Shown here piece after piece: positions 53,091-61,975 of a stretch of 64,000 bases of DNA. A program made the translations under genes and the position numbers. Each line of letters opens with the position of its first letter. Positions within the stretch are counted from its first letter, which is position 1. Origin of the DNA: Pseudomonadota bacterium (lineage in GTDB: Bacteria; Desulfobacterota; Binatia; Binatales; Binataceae). The DNA is taken from NCBI GenBank assembly GCA_021324885.1, contig JAJPIF010000014.1, positions 1 through 64,000 of the forward strand. Direction: 5' to 3'. The notes below the pieces were generated by a model, which was given only the letters and a program-made list of their open reading frames with translations, searched no databases and was not told the origin of the DNA.

Positions 53091-55559
53091 ATGGCCGGAC
53101 CTTGCGACGGACTCGTGGTTTTGGACTTCAGTTGGGGGATGGCCGGCGGACTTGCCACCGCAGTCCTGGCCGATTTCGGTGCCGAAGTCATCAAGATCGA
53201 ACCGCCCAGCGGCGATCCCTTTCGCTGCCATCCGGCCTGGATATCCTGGAACCGCGGAAAGAAAAGCGCGGTTTTCGATCTGAAGACCGCCGAGGGGCGC
53301 GACCGAGTCCATCGACTGGCCGAGCAGGCCGACGCGGTGTTCGAATCCTTTCGTCCCGGAGTCGCGCGGCGGCTGGGGATCGATTATGCGACGCTGGCCG
53401 AGATCAACCCGCGTCTGGCGTACGCCTCCATCACCGGATGGGGCCAGCAGGGCCCGCTCAGCCAGGTGCCCGGCTACGAAGGCGCAGTCGCTGCCAGGTC
53501 GGGCCGGATGAAGGATTTCACCGGCCAGATGAATCGCGAAGGCCCCACCTACACCGCCGTCCAGGTCGGAACGTGGGCCTCGGGGCAGGCCGCCCTGCGC
53601 GGGGTTCTGGCAGTGCTGCTCACGCGCGAAGAAACGGGGCGCGGTCAATGGGTCCGCACCAGTATCCTGCAGAACATGATCCCTTACGATTTGGCGGGCC
53701 TTATCATGCGCCAGCTTTCGCGCATCGATCCCAAAAGCTTTCCCGCAGGCTCCCTGGGCGCCGCCATCCGCTTGCCGATGCTCCAGTATATCCCGGTGCG
53801 GACCAAAGACGGCCAATGGCTCCAGCACGCCAACCTGATGGACCGGCTCTTTCGCGCCTACCTCAAGGCGGTCGGACTCGGCTGGGTGCTCGAGGAAGAG
53901 CTGTTCAAGACCGCCCCCGTCCTCAAGCATGAGGCGCGCGAAGCGCTGCGCGAACTGATCCTCAACAAGATGCAGGAGCGCACGCTGGATGAATGGATCG
54001 AGCTGTACAAGGCCGACGGAAATATCGCCGGGGAGCCATACCGCTATGCCGTCGAGGGAATGAAGCACGAGCAGTTCCTGCACAATCATCACGCGGTCGA
54101 AATTGACGATCCGCGGGTCGGCCGGCTGACGACGGTGGGGTTGCTGGCGCAACTGAGTGAAACGCCGGGCCAGGTCGGCGGTCCCGCTCCCGAACTGGGC
54201 CAGCATACGGCTGAAATCCTGCAGCGCATCGCGGCCAGCACGCACCGCGCCGCGCCAGCCAGGTCCAGGGGCCAGGCGGATTCGCAACCCTCCCCCAGGC
54301 CTGTGTTGGAGGGGTTGCGGATGTTGGATTTTTCGATGGTGATCGCGGGTCCGTATGCCGCCGAGATGCTGTCGGAGATGGGTGTGCGGGTGATCAAGGT
54401 TGATGCGACTCCGGAGCGCGAACAGGCCATCAGCACGGGCGGCGGGATGGCGCCGATGAATCTGAAGAACCACGCCGGCAAGGAAGCCATCCAGGTCAAC
54501 CTGCAAAGCGCCGAGGGCCAGAAGATCATCCATCAACTGGTCGCGCAATCCGACATCCTGCTGCATAACTTCCGCCCCGGCGTACCGCAGCGTCTGGCGA
54601 TCGATTGGGAGACCTGCCGCCGTATCAATCCCCGCCTGATCCACGTCTATGTGGGCGCGTACGGCGCGACCGGTCCGCACCATCGACGGCCCGGCGCCCA
54701 TCCGATACCCGGTGCCCTGTTGGGTGGGGCGCTGCGCCAGGCCGGCCGCGCAAACCCGCCGCCGCCCGATCAGCCGATGGACCTGGAGCAGATCAAGGAA
54801 GTGTCACGCCTTCTGATGAGAGCCAACGAAGGCAATCCCGACCCCAACACTTCGCAGGCGGTCGCCACCGCAATCATGCTGGCCCTGCTGGCGCGCCAGC
54901 GCACCGGACGCGGACAGGCGATCGAAGTTACGATGCTTCAGGGGAACGCGTGGGCCAACGCGGACGAGGCCTATGACTACGAGGGCCGGCCGCCCTACCT
55001 GTTGCCCGACGCACAATGCTACGGCCTTAACGCGTTATACCGCCTGTACCCGGCCGGCGAGGGCTGGGTCTTCCTTGCCTGTGTCTTCGATCGCGAATGG
55101 GAGGCGTTGTGCCGCGCCATCAACCGCACGGACCTGCTGAGCGATCGGCGTTTTGCCGGACCATCGGACCGCAAGGAGCATGACAGCGAACTGGCCGCCG
55201 AACTTGAAAAGATATTTAAGGCTCGTTCCGCCCAACAGTGGGAAGAGCTGCTGACGGCCGCGGGAGTCGCTTGCGTGGAGGCCGACACCAGCGTCGGCGA
55301 GTTTCTCGAAGAGCATCCGCAGGCGATCGCCAACCGGATGACGGTGGAGGTCGAGAGCCCGCGCTTCGGCCGCTATCTGCGCCACGGCGCGCTGATCGAT
55401 TTTTCCGCTTCTCCCGCGCGCCTGGAACACGGTCCGTTCCTGGGCGAGCATACGGTCAAAGTGATGCGCGAGCTGGGCTACAGCGATGAGCAGATCGCCG
55501 ATTTGCGTTCGCGCGGCGTGATCCACTGGGAGGAGCCCCGATTGAAGGCCGGGGCCTGA
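53091..55559 (+). CDS. double CaiB/BaiF CoA-transferase fusion
   Basis: This encodes 822 residues with a strong AGGAGG before the ATG at 53091. Two full family III CoA-transferase modules lie in tandem. The first (about 1-395) begins [20 protein letters not shown], with [13 protein letters not shown] in the active-site region. The second (about 405-815) begins [20 protein letters not shown]. In the second module the active-site region is replaced by a stretch without an obvious catalytic Asp ([20 protein letters not shown]), so one half may be structural. It acts on acyl-CoA catabolism in the cytoplasm. Confidence 0.9.
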
Positions 55560-55565
55560 AGCCGG

Positions 55566-56600
55566 TCATTGCGTGAGTGAAATCGCCAGGGCGCCGTCCA
55601 GCGGCGCCGTTCCGGTCAGGTCCAGCGAGCCATTGATACCGTTGCCGATCCAGTAGCCAGTGATGTTGCCGTTGCTCACGGATTGCAACCAGAATTGGGC
55701 AAAACCCTTGACCCGGCAGCATCCCCCGGCCGCTCCCCAGTCCACTAAAATCAGGGTGACCGCCCGCCCGTCGTTGGCCGTATAATCCGGAGGGGGCACC
55801 GCCGTGCCGGAGGGGTCCTCGCTGTAGCCCAGATCGATCCGGTTCAGGATGGCCTCGCTGACCGGGCCGGTGGTGGCTGATTTGTCGGCAGCCACCGCAT
55901 CGTTGAGCGACAGCTTGCTGTCGTAACCGTCAGGGAAGACCGCGGTAAACGGCCCGCCCAGGTGCAGCGCACTCCAGTAGTTGGGCGGGATGGTGGTGGT
56001 CGGGTTGGGACGAAACAGCAGCACCGTGCTGGTGCCGTATGAGTACGGCGTCGTATATTGCAGTCCGATAGGCACGGCGCCGATGACCGCGCCTGCCTCC
56101 GCCACGGTTGCCGTGGCCGTCACCGCGATCGTGGCCTGGTTCACTCCAACCAGGCGCGCAAAATAGAAATTCACGATTCGCCGCACCTGCATCGTGAGAT
56201 TGCACGCGGCCAGGGCAAACGGCGGCGGCGTCACCATCGAGCATCCGGCCGGCGGCACCAGCGCGGGACATGCCATCGGTGCCGGGCTGGACCCGGGTGC
56301 CGGACAATTGGCGCCGTACGCGGTGACAATGGAAGCCAGTTCGCGCTCGTGGATTCCGTTGAAACAGTTGGCGTAGGTTTCGGCGGTGGCAATCGCCCTG
56401 CAGGGCTGATTGGGAAGATATTTGGCGCCCGACAGCACCGAAGCGTCCGCTGCGGTCTGGATCTTCACGTAATTAAAGAAAAGATTGCCCACGTCCATCG
56501 CCAATCCGACACCCCCGATAAAGGCCGGTAAGGCTATCAGCAAAACCGTAAGGGTCTGAGCACGGCCGCGGCCAGCGCGCGGCCCCCTTGACTCTCCCAT
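55566..56600 (-). CDS. TadG-like secreted protein, paralogue A
   Basis: This encodes 344 residues. The N-terminal membrane helix QTLTVLLIALPAFIGGVGLA and MDVGNLFFNYVKIQTAADAS form the TadE/G-like (PF13400-type) pilin anchor. Shared with B and C below: IVNFYFARLVGVNQATIAVT, VPIGLQYTTPYSYG, VKGFAQFWLQSV and the ending DGALAISLTQ. Six or more cysteines suggest disulfides outside. No tad pilus machinery is in the window. AGGGGGGA precedes the ATG. Confidence 0.8.
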   Translation of the reverse strand: MGESRGPRAGRGRAQTLTVLLIALPAFIGGVGLAMDVGNLFFNYVKIQTAADASVLSGAKYLPNQPCRAIATAETYANCFNGIHERELASIVTAYGANCPAPGSSPAPMACPALVPPAGCSMVTPPPFALAACNLTMQVRRIVNFYFARLVGVNQATIAVTATATVAEAGAVIGAVPIGLQYTTPYSYGTSTVLLFRPNPTTTIPPNYWSALHLGGPFTAVFPDGYDSKLSLNDAVAADKSATTGPVSEAILNRIDLGYSEDPSGTAVPPPDYTANDGRAVTLILVDWGAAGGCCRVKGFAQFWLQSVSNGNITGYWIGNGINGSLDLTGTAPLDGALAISLTQ

Positions 56601-57306: not shown

Positions 57307-57336
57307 TTGACTTGTACAATTCGTCTGAGTTAATCT
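57307..57336 (+). promoter_or_regulatory. promoter P0 of TadG-like gene B
   Basis: TTGACT (57307-57312), a 17-base spacer and TTAATC (57330-57335) are followed by TTAGTTGCGCTGAAAGTTGC. The downstream sequence matches those after promoters P1 (59127) and P2 (60834): AAGG-GCGCTT-AG-TGC. It implies a leader of about 330 bases containing CCATCAG/CTGATGG, a perfect 7-bp hairpin. Confidence 0.55.
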
Positions 57337-57667
57337 TAGTTGCGCTGAAAGTTGCGATTTCCTGCTGGTGTCCAGTCTGGCCTGGAAAGCTCTGTGATGG
57401 GTGGTTGAGAGGGAGGGCGCAACGCACCATCAGTTGCCGCCGCTGATGGGCGACGCAGCGAGAACGATGGCGATCTTGGGAGAATGTGAAAAGCGATTTG
57501 AAACTGCCCGGGATTGCGCCGATGGCGATTGGTCCGCATCATTGCGCGTCCTCGATTGATTGCTTCTCACTGCGCGCAGCGCCGGCCGGTGCGCCCGGAC
57601 CGTTGGATGGAAGTAAGGCTGAGGTTTGAGCTTGGAATCCATAAAAGGAAGACTAAGAGAGCAAACC

Positions 57668-58756
57668 ATGAACCCAATAAATGCCAGGATCAAAACCGTT
57701 GCCGGTTTGAGGCTGCGTTGGGGGCGCAAACGCAAGGGCCAGACGCTGCTCGTGATGCTGCTGGTGTTGCCGGCTTTTATTGGAGCCCTGGGCCTCGCGA
57801 TGGATGTGGGGAACTTCTATTTCCAGTATTACCGGGCGCAGGAAGCGGTGGATGCGGCGGCGCTGGCCGGCGCCACCTGCCAGGCGGAGTCGTCCAAGTG
57901 CACCGCCGGGGGCAGCAGCACTGCGACCACCTATGCGCGGACCAACGACCCGAATATGACGCTTTTGCCCAACCCGGTCGCGGCGCCGTTCTTCAATAGC
58001 AGCTATTGTCCGGCGAGCACGTACCTGACACCCTGCGAAGTTACGGTCTCGGCCACGCAAACCGTGAACTATTACTTCGCCCGGTTGGTCGGGGTGAACA
58101 GCGGCACGTTCGATGTCACCGCGACCGCGGTGGGCGGGCCGCCAAACACTTACAATCCCGGGACCGGCACCAGCAACATGATGCCGATTGGACTTGATTA
58201 CACCACCCCATACAAGGACGGGAATCCCATTTCGCTGGCGTTTTTCCAGTCCCCTGGCCCGGGAAACTGGGGCTTCGTTTTGCCTCAGTCTGAAAGCGGC
58301 AAGATGGACCTGAAGGCCGATATCCAAAATGGCGTGCAGTCAAGTATGTCCATATGGAACGGCACATCTACGCCTACTTCGGCACCCAATCAATTCGTGA
58401 CCACGCAATCGGCGTCGGGCATCGGCAACTCCTTCAAGTATATGGACACCTACCATTATTCTTCGTGTGCCGGTGAAACTCCGACCAATGATCCCAGCAA
58501 CCCGTGTCTGGTCTGCATACCGCTCGTGAATTGGAGTTACGCTTCGGGTTGCGGAGGTGCGACCTGCACCGTGCCCATTATGGGTTTTGCGGAATTTTTT
58601 ATCACCGGGGTAACGGGTCCATCCATGGGCGGGACCGGAAAAAGTGCGAACATCACGGCGACCTGGGTGCAGGGCCTGTGCGGCGGCTCGGGATTTAACC
58701 AGGGCAGCGGCACGCCTCCACAGGAGGGCGCGATCGCGGTCCAACTGATTCAGTAG
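57668..58756 (+). CDS. TadG-like secreted protein, paralogue B
   Basis: This encodes 362 residues from the ATG at 57668; a GGAAGA-like ribosome site is about 20 bases before it and GAGAG closer. Anchor: GQTLLVMLLVLPAFIGALGL and AMDVGNFYFQYYRAQEAVDA. Extracellular part: Cys-rich, with CEVTVSATQTVNYYFARLVG, MPIGLDYTTPYKDGNPISLA, a second Cys cluster (CAGETPTNDPSNPCLVCIPL) and IMGFAEFFITGVTGP. The end EGAIAVQLIQ is conserved in all three. It is closest to paralogue C. The function is unknown; it is possibly a surface fibre or adhesive pseudopilin. Confidence 0.82.
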   Translation: MNPINARIKTVAGLRLRWGRKRKGQTLLVMLLVLPAFIGALGLAMDVGNFYFQYYRAQEAVDAAALAGATCQAESSKCTAGGSSTATTYARTNDPNMTLLPNPVAAPFFNSSYCPASTYLTPCEVTVSATQTVNYYFARLVGVNSGTFDVTATAVGGPPNTYNPGTGTSNMMPIGLDYTTPYKDGNPISLAFFQSPGPGNWGFVLPQSESGKMDLKADIQNGVQSSMSIWNGTSTPTSAPNQFVTTQSASGIGNSFKYMDTYHYSSCAGETPTNDPSNPCLVCIPLVNWSYASGCGGATCTVPIMGFAEFFITGVTGPSMGGTGKSANITATWVQGLCGGSGFNQGSGTPPQEGAIAVQLIQ

Positions 58757-58804
58757 GTCTCGAAGCCAGGCCGAAAGAGGGGTAAACAGCCCATCTGAAT
58801 TTGC

Positions 58805-58950
58805 CCAGGCGCAAGTCGAACGCGGCGACTGCGAGCGTCGGCCATAAGCTCGCACGCCGCGTTTTTTGCCATATCGCCCAGGATAAAAGCGCGCAGAAAG
58901 CTCGATCCGAGCGGATTTTCGCATCCGGCGGCAGGCTTGCGTTACGGCTT
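58805..58950 (+). repeat. conserved 3' block, copy 1 (copy 2 at 60657-60801)
   Basis: About 145 bases after paralogue B are near-identical to those after paralogue C at an offset of 1853, with one single-base gap. Beyond the terminator both copies keep GCTCG-ATC/ATT-CGAGC (58900-58912; 60752-60764), where only the loop differs, and CGGAT-TTTCGC-ATCCG (58912-58927; 60764-60779). Conserved stems with changes confined to loops hint at RNA structure. Confidence 0.8.
58822..58867 (+). terminator. intrinsic terminator T1 after TadG-like gene B
   Basis: The outer stem GCGGC/GCCGC (58822-58826/58856-58860) and inner stem GCGAGC/GCTCGC (58831-58836/58848-58853) enclose the loop GTCGGCCATAA, with TTTTTT at 58862-58867. 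It is a textbook rho-independent terminator, 66 bases after the stop. Confidence 0.85.
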
Positions 58951-59126
58951 CGCAACCGCCGTACTGAACCGGCCAGACTTCATTTACCCATTTAGAGCTC
59001 GACCACGGGGCCTTGCCACAAGGACTTTGCGGGCGATTGGCGAATAACGGTCCGGCGCGCATCAGCGCCCGACGCCATAAGCCTGTCGGTCGGACTGCCG
59101 GCGAAACCTACTGGAAGTACGCGAGC

Positions 59127-59155
59127 TTGACAGTCGGTTTTATCTGCATTAATTT
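59127..59155 (+). promoter_or_regulatory. promoter P1 of TadG-like gene C
   Basis: TTGACA (59127-59132), exactly 17 bases, then TAATTT (59150-59155), followed by AAGGTGCGCTTAAAGATGC. The upstream AACCTAC..GAAGTACG..CTTGAC is shared with P2. The leader to the ATG at 59514 is about 350 bases. Confidence 0.65.
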
Positions 59156-59513
59156 AAGGTGCGCTTAAAGATGCAACTTTACTGAGGATTTCCAGTCAGG
59201 CTAAAAACGTGTGTGCCGGGAGCATCCGTGAACGAAGCGCAGTTGTCCCGGGTATTCCATTGAGGTGCGGAGACAGGGTTCAAAAAGAACATGCGAGTCT
59301 CACCGCAACGGCCTGGTTGCAGTTTTCTCCTGGGAGATTGGACGCGCGGTTCAAAGCATTCATCGGGGCAGCGTGAATCGCCGGGTTTGGCCTTGGCTTG
59401 ATTCTTCTTGGCTGCGAACTGCTCATATCACGTGGTCGCGGCCCCATGGGCGGTCACTGAAAAGCGGAATTGGTGTTTGAGCCTGGAACGCATTGAAAGG
59501 AGAAAAGTAAAAA

Positions 59514-60608
59514 ATGAAGCCAGTAGTTGCCAGGATCAGCGCCCTCGCCCGCTGGAGGCCGGAACTGGGACGCAAAGGGAAAGGCCAGATGCTGGTCCTG
59601 ATGCTGCTGGTCTTGCCGGTTTTCATCGGCGCCATCGGGCTGGCGATGGACGTGGGGAATTTTTACTTCAACTACTATCGGGCGCAGCAGTCGGTTGACG
59701 CAGCCGCGCTGGCTGGGGCCACCTGCCAGGCGGAGTCGCAGAGTTGCAGTTACACGACGGGTTCGAGCAACGTTCCAACCAACTACGCCACCACCAACAA
59801 TCCCAACATCACGCTGGTTCCCAACCCGGTTGCGTCTCCGGTTTACGACCCCGCCTACTGTCCATCGCCAACTTATCTGACACCGTGCGAGGTGACGGTT
59901 TCGGCAACTCAGACAGTTCCATATTATTTTGCCCGCCTGGTGGGGGTTAACAGCGGTACGTTCGACGTCTCGGCAACGGCAGTGGGCGGGCCGATGAACC
60001 AATATAATCCGCCTGGCGGCACCGGCAACATGATGCCGATCGGGCTTGACTACACCACCCCCTACACGGATGGCAATCCGATCAGTTTGGCGTACAAATT
60101 CTCTGCCGGCCCGGGCAACTGGGGTTTCCTGGCGCTCGGTGGCAATGGTGATGCGGTGCTAACCAAAAATATTGAATACGGCGCTCAGGTCAGCATGTCG
60201 CAGTGGGATGGAACCTCCACGCCTTCATCGCAACCAGCCATGTTTGTGGACACTGAGCCGGGTGTCGGAAGAGGGTTCACGGCTATGAACACCTACCGGT
60301 ACTCAACATGTGCCGGGCAGAGCGTCACCGACTATCCCGCCAACAGCCCGTGCGCCGTATGTATTCCTTTGGTGGACTGGAGTTACGATTCGTCCACCAA
60401 TTCCGCCAGCGGCGGCTCGTGTACGGGCAAGTGCACCGTGCCCATCATGGGTTTCGCCGAGTTTTTCATTACTGGTGTGACGGATCATGGCTCTTCGGGT
60501 ACGGTCACCGCAACTTGGACTCACCACCCGTGCGAAGGTGGCGTGCTTTCTCCCGGAGGACCGACTGCCGTCAAAGAGGGCGCAATCGCTATCCAGTTGA
60601 TCAGGTAG
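59514..60608 (+). CDS. TadG-like secreted protein, paralogue C
   Basis: This encodes 364 residues with AAAGGAGA before the ATG. Anchor: GQMLVLMLLVLPVFIGAIGL and AMDVGNFYFNYYRAQQSVDA. It aligns throughout with paralogue B: CEVTVSATQTVPYYFARLVG, MPIGLDYTTPYTDGNPISLA, CAGQSVTDYPANSPCAVCIP, IMGFAEFFITGVTDHG, and the end EGAIAIQLIR. The variable parts lie between these blocks, as in surface proteins that diversify. It is a duplicate of B including its flanking control regions. Confidence 0.82.
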   Translation: MKPVVARISALARWRPELGRKGKGQMLVLMLLVLPVFIGAIGLAMDVGNFYFNYYRAQQSVDAAALAGATCQAESQSCSYTTGSSNVPTNYATTNNPNITLVPNPVASPVYDPAYCPSPTYLTPCEVTVSATQTVPYYFARLVGVNSGTFDVSATAVGGPMNQYNPPGGTGNMMPIGLDYTTPYTDGNPISLAYKFSAGPGNWGFLALGGNGDAVLTKNIEYGAQVSMSQWDGTSTPSSQPAMFVDTEPGVGRGFTAMNTYRYSTCAGQSVTDYPANSPCAVCIPLVDWSYDSSTNSASGGSCTGKCTVPIMGFAEFFITGVTDHGSSGTVTATWTHHPCEGGVLSPGGPTAVKEGAIAIQLIR

Positions 60609-60674
60609 GCTTCGTAGCGAGCCGAACCAGCCTACGAAACAATCCCGTCGCAGTCGCCCAGGTGCAAGTCGAGC

Positions 60675-60720
60675 GCGGCGGCTGCGAGCGTCGGCCATAA
60701 GCTCGCATGCCGCGTTTTTT
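60675..60720 (+). terminator. intrinsic terminator T2 after TadG-like gene C
   Basis: It has the same architecture as T1: GCGGC/GCCGC (60675-60679/60709-60713), GCGAGC/GCTCGC (60684-60689/60701-60706), identical loop GTCGGCCATAA, and TTTTTT at 60715-60720. Confidence 0.85.
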
Positions 60721-60833
60721 GCCACATCGCCAGGATAAGAGCGCGCAGAAAGCTCGATTCGAGCGGATTTTCGCATCCGTCGGCAGGCCTGCGTTTTAAT
60801 TTCGCGGTCCAAACCTACGACAAGTACGTAAAC

Positions 60834-60862
60834 TTGACGCAAATCGCTTACCTGCATTAAAT
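60834..60862 (+). promoter_or_regulatory. promoter P2 of the beta-propeller lipoprotein gene
   Basis: TTGACG (60834-60839), a 17-base spacer and TTAAAT (60857-60862), followed by TAAGGGGCGCTTTCGAGGTGC. It matches P1 across some 70 bases, which suggests co-regulation of the TadG-like genes and the propeller gene. The leader here is only about 35 bases. Confidence 0.6.
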
Positions 60863-60901
60863 TAAGGGGCGCTTTCGAGGTGCGCATAGTTTCGTTTCCG
60901 T

Positions 60902-61975
60902 ATGCTTGGTTGGATCGCAAGACCTATTACAGCGCTGCCGTTTGTCGTGATTTGCGTTGCCATCTGTGGATGCGGCAACGACCACAACTCACCTCCCTTG
61001 CCAACTCCGGTGCCGACTCCCACACCTTCAGTTGTCACTTACAGCTCAGGCGGCAATTACCCTGAGGGAATCGGAATCGACGGGTCGGACCACGTCTGGA
61101 TCGCAAACCGATACAGCGATAGTGTGGCGGAGCTGACCAATGCAGGCACGCTCCTGGCCACATTCCCGGTAGGACATCGGCCCCACGGGCTGAAGATCGA
61201 TCGCAAAGGCACAGGCGCCATCTGGGTACAGAATACGGCTGGCGGCGGTCCCGGCGCGCTCTCATCATGTCCGGGCGGGACCACCGGTACGGTCACCGCC
61301 CTGGCGGGTAGTGGCGCCTTGATTGGCAGCTTCTGCAGCGGCGGCGACAGCCCTCAGCATGCTCAGTTCGACGCTTCCGGGAACGTCTGGGTGACCAATC
61401 AGGGAAGCAACACGGTTGCCGAAATCAACGGCAGCACCGGCGCGCTCATCAACACCTTTGCGACCGGCGAAGGCCCACATGCGATTGCAAAGGACCAAAG
61501 CGGAAATTTCTGGATTGGCAACTACTACAGCGGAACGGTAAGCGTGCTCAATTCGTCCGGCACTTCGATCGGGACAATTCCCGAAGACCGGCTAGGGTTG
61601 CAGCCTACCGGCAATGATATCGATCCTTCGGGCAACCTCTGGCAATCGGTGCAGAGCATCGATCAGGTGGCGGTTTTCGCGGCAGCGCCGTCATTCGCGC
61701 CGATCCGGACCGAGGCCGTGGGAGTCGGCCCGCGCGGTGTTACCATCGACGCCGCCGGCAACGTTTTCGTTGCCAATCAGCAATCCAACAACGTGATCGA
61801 GTTCAACTCGACCGGCAGCCGCATCGCCGAGTTCCAGGTGGGCGCGTGTCCGGAGAACATGGCGGTCGATTCCAGCGGCGATGTCTGGGTCACCAACGCC
61901 TGCAGCAGTACGGTTAGCGTGCTCAAAGGTGTCGCGGTACCGTCGCCCCATTCCGACGACGATTCCAACGGCTGA
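60902..61975 (+). CDS. NHL/virginiamycin-B-lyase-like beta-propeller lipoprotein
   Basis: This encodes 357 residues. The lipoprotein signal ends VICVAICGCGND, then a Pro/Thr spacer. Six or so repeats of about 40-45 residues share the pattern GI-ID--G-VWVAN--S-TV-E: IGIDGSDHVWIANRYSDSVA, AQFDASGNVWVTNQGSNTVA, IAKDQSGNFWIGNYYSGTVS, VTIDAAGNVFVANQQSNNVI and MAVDSSGDVWVTNACSSTVS. This predicts a Vgb/NHL-type propeller outside the cell. It shares promoter sequence with the TadG-like genes, so it may be a partner or scaffold for them. Confidence 0.85.
   Translation: MLGWIARPITALPFVVICVAICGCGNDHNSPPLPTPVPTPTPSVVTYSSGGNYPEGIGIDGSDHVWIANRYSDSVAELTNAGTLLATFPVGHRPHGLKIDRKGTGAIWVQNTAGGGPGALSSCPGGTTGTVTALAGSGALIGSFCSGGDSPQHAQFDASGNVWVTNQGSNTVAEINGSTGALINTFATGEGPHAIAKDQSGNFWIGNYYSGTVSVLNSSGTSIGTIPEDRLGLQPTGNDIDPSGNLWQSVQSIDQVAVFAAAPSFAPIRTEAVGVGPRGVTIDAAGNVFVANQQSNNVIEFNSTGSRIAEFQVGACPENMAVDSSGDVWVTNACSSTVSVLKGVAVPSPHSDDDSNG

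Follow-up and report, generated by a model that had tools for sequence, protein, structure and literature searches.

In the available part of its description, the Kil Tips of Myxococcus xanthus are minor pilin complexes of KilL, KilM and KilN, the last of which is large and homologous to TadG; four Kil Tip sets are interchangeable at the pilus end, and the kil tip genes are restricted to Myxococcota (PMC12075869). CpaL of Caulobacter crescentus, again as far as the available part of its report goes, resembles a minor pilin and is predicted to occupy the tip of the Tad pilus (PMC12607857). Here we analyse three TadG-like genes, A, B and C, together with the repeated promoter-like (P) and terminator (T) elements around B and C and the beta-propeller gene that follows them, in a 64,000-nt stretch of DNA (the window; positions 1 to 64,000 of contig JAJPIF010000014.1) from a member of the Binataceae (GCA_021324885.1). 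Among the matches listed in a search of the openly accessible literature, no paper dealt with Tad pili in Binatota. We consider it reasonably probable that A, B and C belong to the TadG-type minor pilins and were detached from a tad operon, that they are probably tip proteins, and that B and C were tandem-duplicated with a promoter and a terminator.

All three proteins exceed the curated cut-off of PF13400 in the Pfam search (Table 1). The preliminary description of this DNA had proposed two TadG-like genes and a beta-propeller gene, and both assignments hold: B and C carry PF13400, and the propeller gene has NHL and SGL matches and a lipobox-like cysteine. Gene A, opposite in strand to B and C and beyond the coordinates considered there, was overlooked. 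It is divergent from B, and its product is 49% identical to that of L049:8589-9587, which in G001 is the last of three TadG-like genes following the tad operon. Throughout, G000 is the own genome (4.5 Mb), C1 is its contig holding the window, and C4, C9, C20 and C29 are other contigs of it; G001 and G002 are two other genomes of the same genus, further G numbers are related genomes, and L numbers are loci fetched from genomes.

Table 1. Positions of the TadG-like genes, the repeated elements and the propeller gene in the window.
Feature	Position	Strand	Evidence
Gene A: TadG-like protein, 344 amino acids (aa)	55566..56600	minus	PF13400 E 2.9e-6, above cut-off
P0: promoter-like element 5' of B; TTGAC to ATG, 361 nt	57307..57339	+	1 of 3 genome-wide pattern matches; aligns with P1
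Gene B: TadG-like protein, 362 aa	57668..58756	+	PF13400 E 1.1e-7
T1 block: intrinsic-terminator hairpin (loop GTCGGCCATAA, stem in the 58820-58862 region, T6) and conserved 3' stretch	58806..58943	+	likeness to T2 block; fold z
P1: promoter-like element 5' of C; TTGAC to ATG, 387 nt	59127..59158	+	pattern match; alignment
Gene C: TadG-like protein, 364 aa	59514..60608	+	PF13400 E 6.5e-9; AlphaFold2 model
T2 block: copy of T1, terminator hairpin and conserved 3' stretch	60659..60795	+	stem-loop match, alignment, fold z
P2: promoter-like element 5' of the propeller gene; TTGAC to ATG, 68 nt	60834..60866	+	pattern match; alignment; sigma-70 scan
NHL/SGL-type beta-propeller, lipoprotein-like signal, 357 aa	60902..61975	+	Pfam

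The closest relatives of these genes are members of a tad operon. In G001, an operon with TadE, RcpC, a secretin, a TadZ-like ATPase, TadA and two T2SSF proteins continues into three TadG-like genes; this trio, located after tadC at the operon end, includes the relatives of B/C and of A. The middle gene of the three has no Pfam match at 1e-3 and was recognised because it resembles A. A tad-unlinked gene of G002 and the first of the three group with B and C in the tree (support 98/97), the copy from the own tad operon on C29 is the next branch to this group (100/99), and A pairs with the third gene (100/99). A rival tree uniting the two tad-operon copies of G001 and C29 is disfavoured (p-value of the approximately unbiased test, p-AU, 0.019). 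A wider tree of TadG-like proteins has 48 rows, with two or more entries for the window genes and two for one G007 gene. Because the tree joins B/C and A to the first and third genes of the G001 operon, the most likely origin of A and B/C is in genes that once stood side by side behind a tad operon, unless the copies in the operon were instead brought together at that place; the direction of the change is an inference.

The genome that holds A, B and C also holds Tad machines, on C29 and on C20. It has three T2SSE matches, one of PilB strength on C4 and two Tad-like, and none of the three is on C1, in agreement with the earlier statement that no tad machinery lies nearby. The C29 locus has a TadA-type ATPase, a TadZ-like ATPase, a secretin, RcpC, a TadG-like gene, a GT87 gene and one called T2SSF, a count that excludes a putative second T2SSF gene omitted by the gene caller (gap L011:8229-9216). 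The C20 locus has a TadA-type ATPase, a TadZ-like ATPase, a secretin, RcpC and two T2SSF, and shows no PF13400 match. Apart from both machines, C9 carries a TadE-TadE-TadG set (L013, G000:C9:188443-188853), the TadG of which also matches DUF7305. Behind the tad operon of C29 (L011:273-5983) we observed two large proteins of 703 and 715 aa without a Pfam match and the GT87 glycosyltransferase; glycosylation of the pilus is possible.

On the favoured reading, the long N-terminal helix would anchor A, B and C in the inner membrane, and the Tad machine of C29, of C20 or of both would use them in trans, with the TadE-type proteins of C9. Their position would be the pilus tip or its vicinity, and their variable distal parts may there touch surfaces or other cells. 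B and C could act as alternative or joint tips, and the cell could choose or mix them, as with the four Kil Tips, because each is equipped with a separate promoter and terminator. Duplicate P and T elements would have arisen with the tandem duplication. The propeller gene may use P2 because P2 marks the end of the duplicated segment, or P2 may have been its promoter from before.

The two copies of the B/C unit are spaced about 1.85 kb apart, and the B and C proteins are identical at 233 of 354 positions (66%). By the Nei-Gojobori method (NG86), the nonsynonymous and synonymous divergences (dN and dS) are 0.28 and 1.54, giving a dN/dS of about 0.18, and the pair is under purifying selection. 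The best-kept parts, the helix and the first beta portion, are residues 20-75 (47/56 identical) and 125-182 (51/58), and the variable parts are residues 209-276 (32/68) and 326-352 (10/27). Each protein has ten cysteines at similar places. In the AlphaFold2 model of C, the only protein modelled (pLDDT 75.3, pTM 0.70), a long N-terminal helix (22-73) is followed by a mostly beta globular part with strands from residue 125 on. The alignment behind this model comprised 25 sequences, namely the three of the window and 22 of the 25 loci inspected; L117, L118 and L121, in which the frame closed at once at the match start, were left out, and 54 other loci were unused. As to processing by a prepilin peptidase, typical pilins have a Glu at position 5; reading of the sequence showed a GQ ahead of the hydrophobic stretch and no Glu at this position.

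The conservation of the P and T elements against everything around them is the strongest oddity of the unit. T1 and T2 have exactly the same 23-nt terminator stem-loop, which includes the identical loop reported earlier; with up to 3 mismatches allowed, the genome has two occurrences of it, and it lies inside blocks (58806-58943 and 60659-60795) that are identical at 128 of 138 positions, the differences being 8 transitions, 1 transversion and 1 indel. By comparison, just 67 of 135 fourfold sites of B/C are identical, as are 28 of 51 positions between the stop codon and the T block, and the leaders of B and C are nearly unrelated (36% identity, against a mean of 31% and a maximum of 38% for shuffled sequences). 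Since the similarity of the P and T copies far exceeds that of neutral sites in the genes, selection on P and T or a later gene conversion is needed. The 70-nt stretches with the hairpins (58806-58875 for T1) fold better than shuffles, with z values of -3.5 for T1 and -3.0 for T2. Neither terminator is listed by a generic scan because its 11-nt loop exceeds the loop limit of 8. The further hairpins that had been described 3' of the terminators were not recovered: these stretches fold no better than shuffles (z +0.2 and +0.5). A second RNA structure 3' of the terminator was rejected on the same lack of a fold signal, and a long-range pairing of the ends of T1 is lost in T2. The conserved T block nevertheless extends about 70 nt beyond the terminator into this stretch without a significant fold, where its strong conservation is unexplained. 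With just two copies in the genome, the T block is not a dispersed repeat element.

The pattern TTGACN{11,14}CTGNRTTAANNTNAG matches the own genome at three places, which start exactly at P0, P1 and P2 (57307, 59127 and 60834). Because the pattern was built from these three sites themselves, only the lack of a fourth genomic copy is informative. The P0-P1 and P1-P2 local alignments were each equalled by 0 of 2000 shuffles and by 3 of 4000 random window pairs, and the P0-P2 pair by itself is weak (64/2000 and 365/4000). The sequence that P0, P1 and P2 were said to have in common is thus confirmed, with P0-P2 as its weakest pair. "Promoter" is a fair but unproved label, because a plain generic sigma-70 scan flags P2 and does not flag P0 or P1 at these positions. 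It is the common P sequence, and no other observation, that would suggest co-regulation of B, C and the propeller gene.

We also searched for the modules in relatives, the check by which the preliminary description had proposed that it be refuted, and the outcome spoke against a module common to relatives. The T stem-loop at up to 3 mismatches had one 3-mismatch match in each of five other genomes among the 38 searched, and the reversed control gave five as well. A DNA search with the T block in 23 genomes returned only the two own copies as long matches. Short chance-like matches (E <= 1) were found in all 23; the best outside the own genome is 30 nt long (E 4.1e-4) and lies in G009, 18 kb from the propeller relative of that genome. 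The P pattern had no match in G001 or G002, the other genus members, and its reversed control had none either. A module common to relatives was accordingly rejected, with T at control level in 38 genomes, no long match in 23 and P in neither of the two genus members.

The propeller protein (NHL E 4.7e-12, SGL E 4.8e-12) has a lipobox-like cysteine near its N-terminus, identified by reading the sequence, and the same holds for its five relatives of 50-78% identity in G014, G002, G009, G010 and G004. All five relatives are on contigs without a TadG-like match, and no P element was seen by eye 5' of them, nor by the pattern in G002. The earlier inclusion of the propeller in the unit is weakened by these contigs. 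The comparison with relatives suggests a neighbour of B and C that shares P2 and is no conserved partner of them.

It is quite possible, somewhat short of probable, that the repeated elements are ordinary sigma-70 promoters and terminators left by segmental tandem duplication and kept alike by gene conversion, with no special co-regulation. Consistent with such a by-product, the differences in the T block are spread alike over paired and unpaired parts, the block ends abruptly, the searches of relatives did not find the modules, and a -35-like TTGAC with AT-rich -10-like boxes is commonplace. This explanation has to accommodate the fact that P and T are alike, whereas the leaders and the T-P spacer are not, and that the P pattern is more specific than a common promoter, because no fourth copy is found in the genome. 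It is unlikely that B and C are self-copying tip cassettes, that is, detached single-gene tips with their own homogenised P and T elements, expressed as a set with the propeller as a surface partner, an arrangement to which tandem duplication could add further tips. Barely conceivable is an array of integron-type gene cassettes in which the T block is the recombination site: it would fit the pair of near-identical 138-nt elements, which follow a stop codon at about 75 nt in both cases, but the element contains an intrinsic terminator and has two copies only in the genome, B and C are paralogues instead of unrelated cassettes, and each gene has its own promoter-like element.

The assignment of A, B and C to Tad pili has to be weighed against several observations. 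No known tad gene lies within reach of B/C, and neither the open reading frame list nor the Pfam search of A, B, C and the propeller revealed a TadE- or TadF-like partner beside them, whereas a Kil Tip, in the available part of its description, is a three-gene set with TadE/TadF-type partners (PMC12075869). The P pattern is absent at the own tad loci, and therefore no common promoter links B/C to the Tad machine. A fold search of the PDB with the model of C gave no match at E <= 0.001, the best VIA-align Z (6.1) belongs to an unrelated enzyme and not to a pilin, and no solved sequence relative was found (best E 0.46); with no solved relative and no library match, the pilin fold is thus without library confirmation, and this lack does not show a new fold. 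The dS between B and C is saturated by maximum likelihood (23.8) and failed by YN00. The order of the B/C duplication and the split from G002 is poorly supported (60/19). A, B and C are outside a tad operon, with no T2SSE match on C1, while their relatives in G001 are inside one. This location lowers the case for membership in a tad operon and not the case for work with a Tad pilus.

The undescribed extracellular structure suggested in the preliminary description, in which the proteins have left the Tad system and the propeller lipoprotein is the outer-membrane part, is distinctly unlikely. The lack of nearby tad genes, the P2 element of the propeller gene and the many tad-unlinked TadG-like copies in relatives (53/65) would agree with it. 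We set it aside because the closest kin, the G001 genes after tadC, are inside a tad operon and the genome retains Tad loci on C29 and C20, with a TadE-TadE-TadG set on C9; the five close relatives of the propeller and the TadG-like matches are on different contigs, and no secretion or assembly gene was seen in the unit. That the genes are decaying, functionless remnants of a tad operon is highly improbable: their location apart from any tad locus would be expected of remnants, but the frames are intact, dN/dS (NG86) is low, the ten-cysteine pattern is kept between B and C, and the N-terminal helix is well conserved. We return, then, to TadG-type minor pilins as the preferred reading.

Matches to C at E <= 1e-5 were found in 18 of 38 genomes, 65 in all, a number that includes the longer canonical TadG clade. 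The earlier view stands in that the TadG-like proteins are membrane-anchored and encoded in tandem, with promoter and terminator modules that recur, and many copies of the family occur in related genomes. A Tad-like ATPase lies within 20 kb of 12 of the 65 matches and not of the other 53 (eight clusters), and 53/65 is an upper limit for "not linked" because contigs are short. The ATPase list behind this count has 32 places of Tad-like strength, covers only genomes with TadG-like matches and does not cover G032. In G007, two short TadG-like genes stand beside a TadE-TadE-TadG set. In L052, L053, L056, L110 and L113, from several genera, TadG-like genes adjoin murA, hisD and prmC, four of these loci also have prfA, and the prfA-prmC-murA-hisD surroundings of TadG-like genes are also seen in the Candidatus Binataceae MAG011 genome. 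These surroundings are a recurrent site of tad-unlinked TadG-like genes, in G007 together with the TadE-TadE-TadG set. A family-specific expansion of PF13400 was rejected: across 118 genomes of the class, copies reach 11 in this family (G014), yet 9 and 8 in other families (G083 and G059).

Next to A in the window, 53091-55559 encodes a CaiB/BaiF-like CoA-transferase, a type with 76 matches in the own genome at E <= 1e-20; its relatives in G001 and G002 are 82-83% identical. An island inserted between linked genes was considered and rejected. In the sequence retrieved around the CaiB-type relatives, none of the 12 other window genes tried was found at >45% identity and >40% coverage, and therefore an empty site is undefinable.

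Should B and C prove to be tips, one uncultured soil lineage would adapt one or two Tad pili through a dispersed stock of TadG-type proteins, and the "adaptable tip" idea, developed for predators in the available part of its source (PMC12075869), would extend to a probable member of Ca. Binatota in a form testable by sequence. If they are merely duplicated minor pilin genes, the locus is ordinary. The conserved P and T elements against diverged leaders and genes make a small puzzle by themselves.

Compared with known systems, A, B and C share a PF13400 N-terminus with the canonical TadG proteins of the C29 operon and the C9 set, and the C29 copy is the one on the next branch to B/C. The C9-type TadG is longer (430 aa) and falls in another clade, and B/C differ from the canonical TadG proteins by their own P and T elements and the lack of tad neighbours. 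CpaL, as the available part of its report describes it, would resemble the proposed B/C as a minor-pilin-like tip protein, and it has a vWA domain, whereas the Pfam search of A, B and C gave no vWA family (PMC12607857). The Kil Tips, again within the available part of their description, would also resemble the proteins of the window: like A/B/C, they include several TadG-type copies, many of them away from the machine locus, and, like B/C, they combine a long N-terminal helix, a conserved base, a variable distal part and many cysteines, a likeness by type and layout (PMC12075869).

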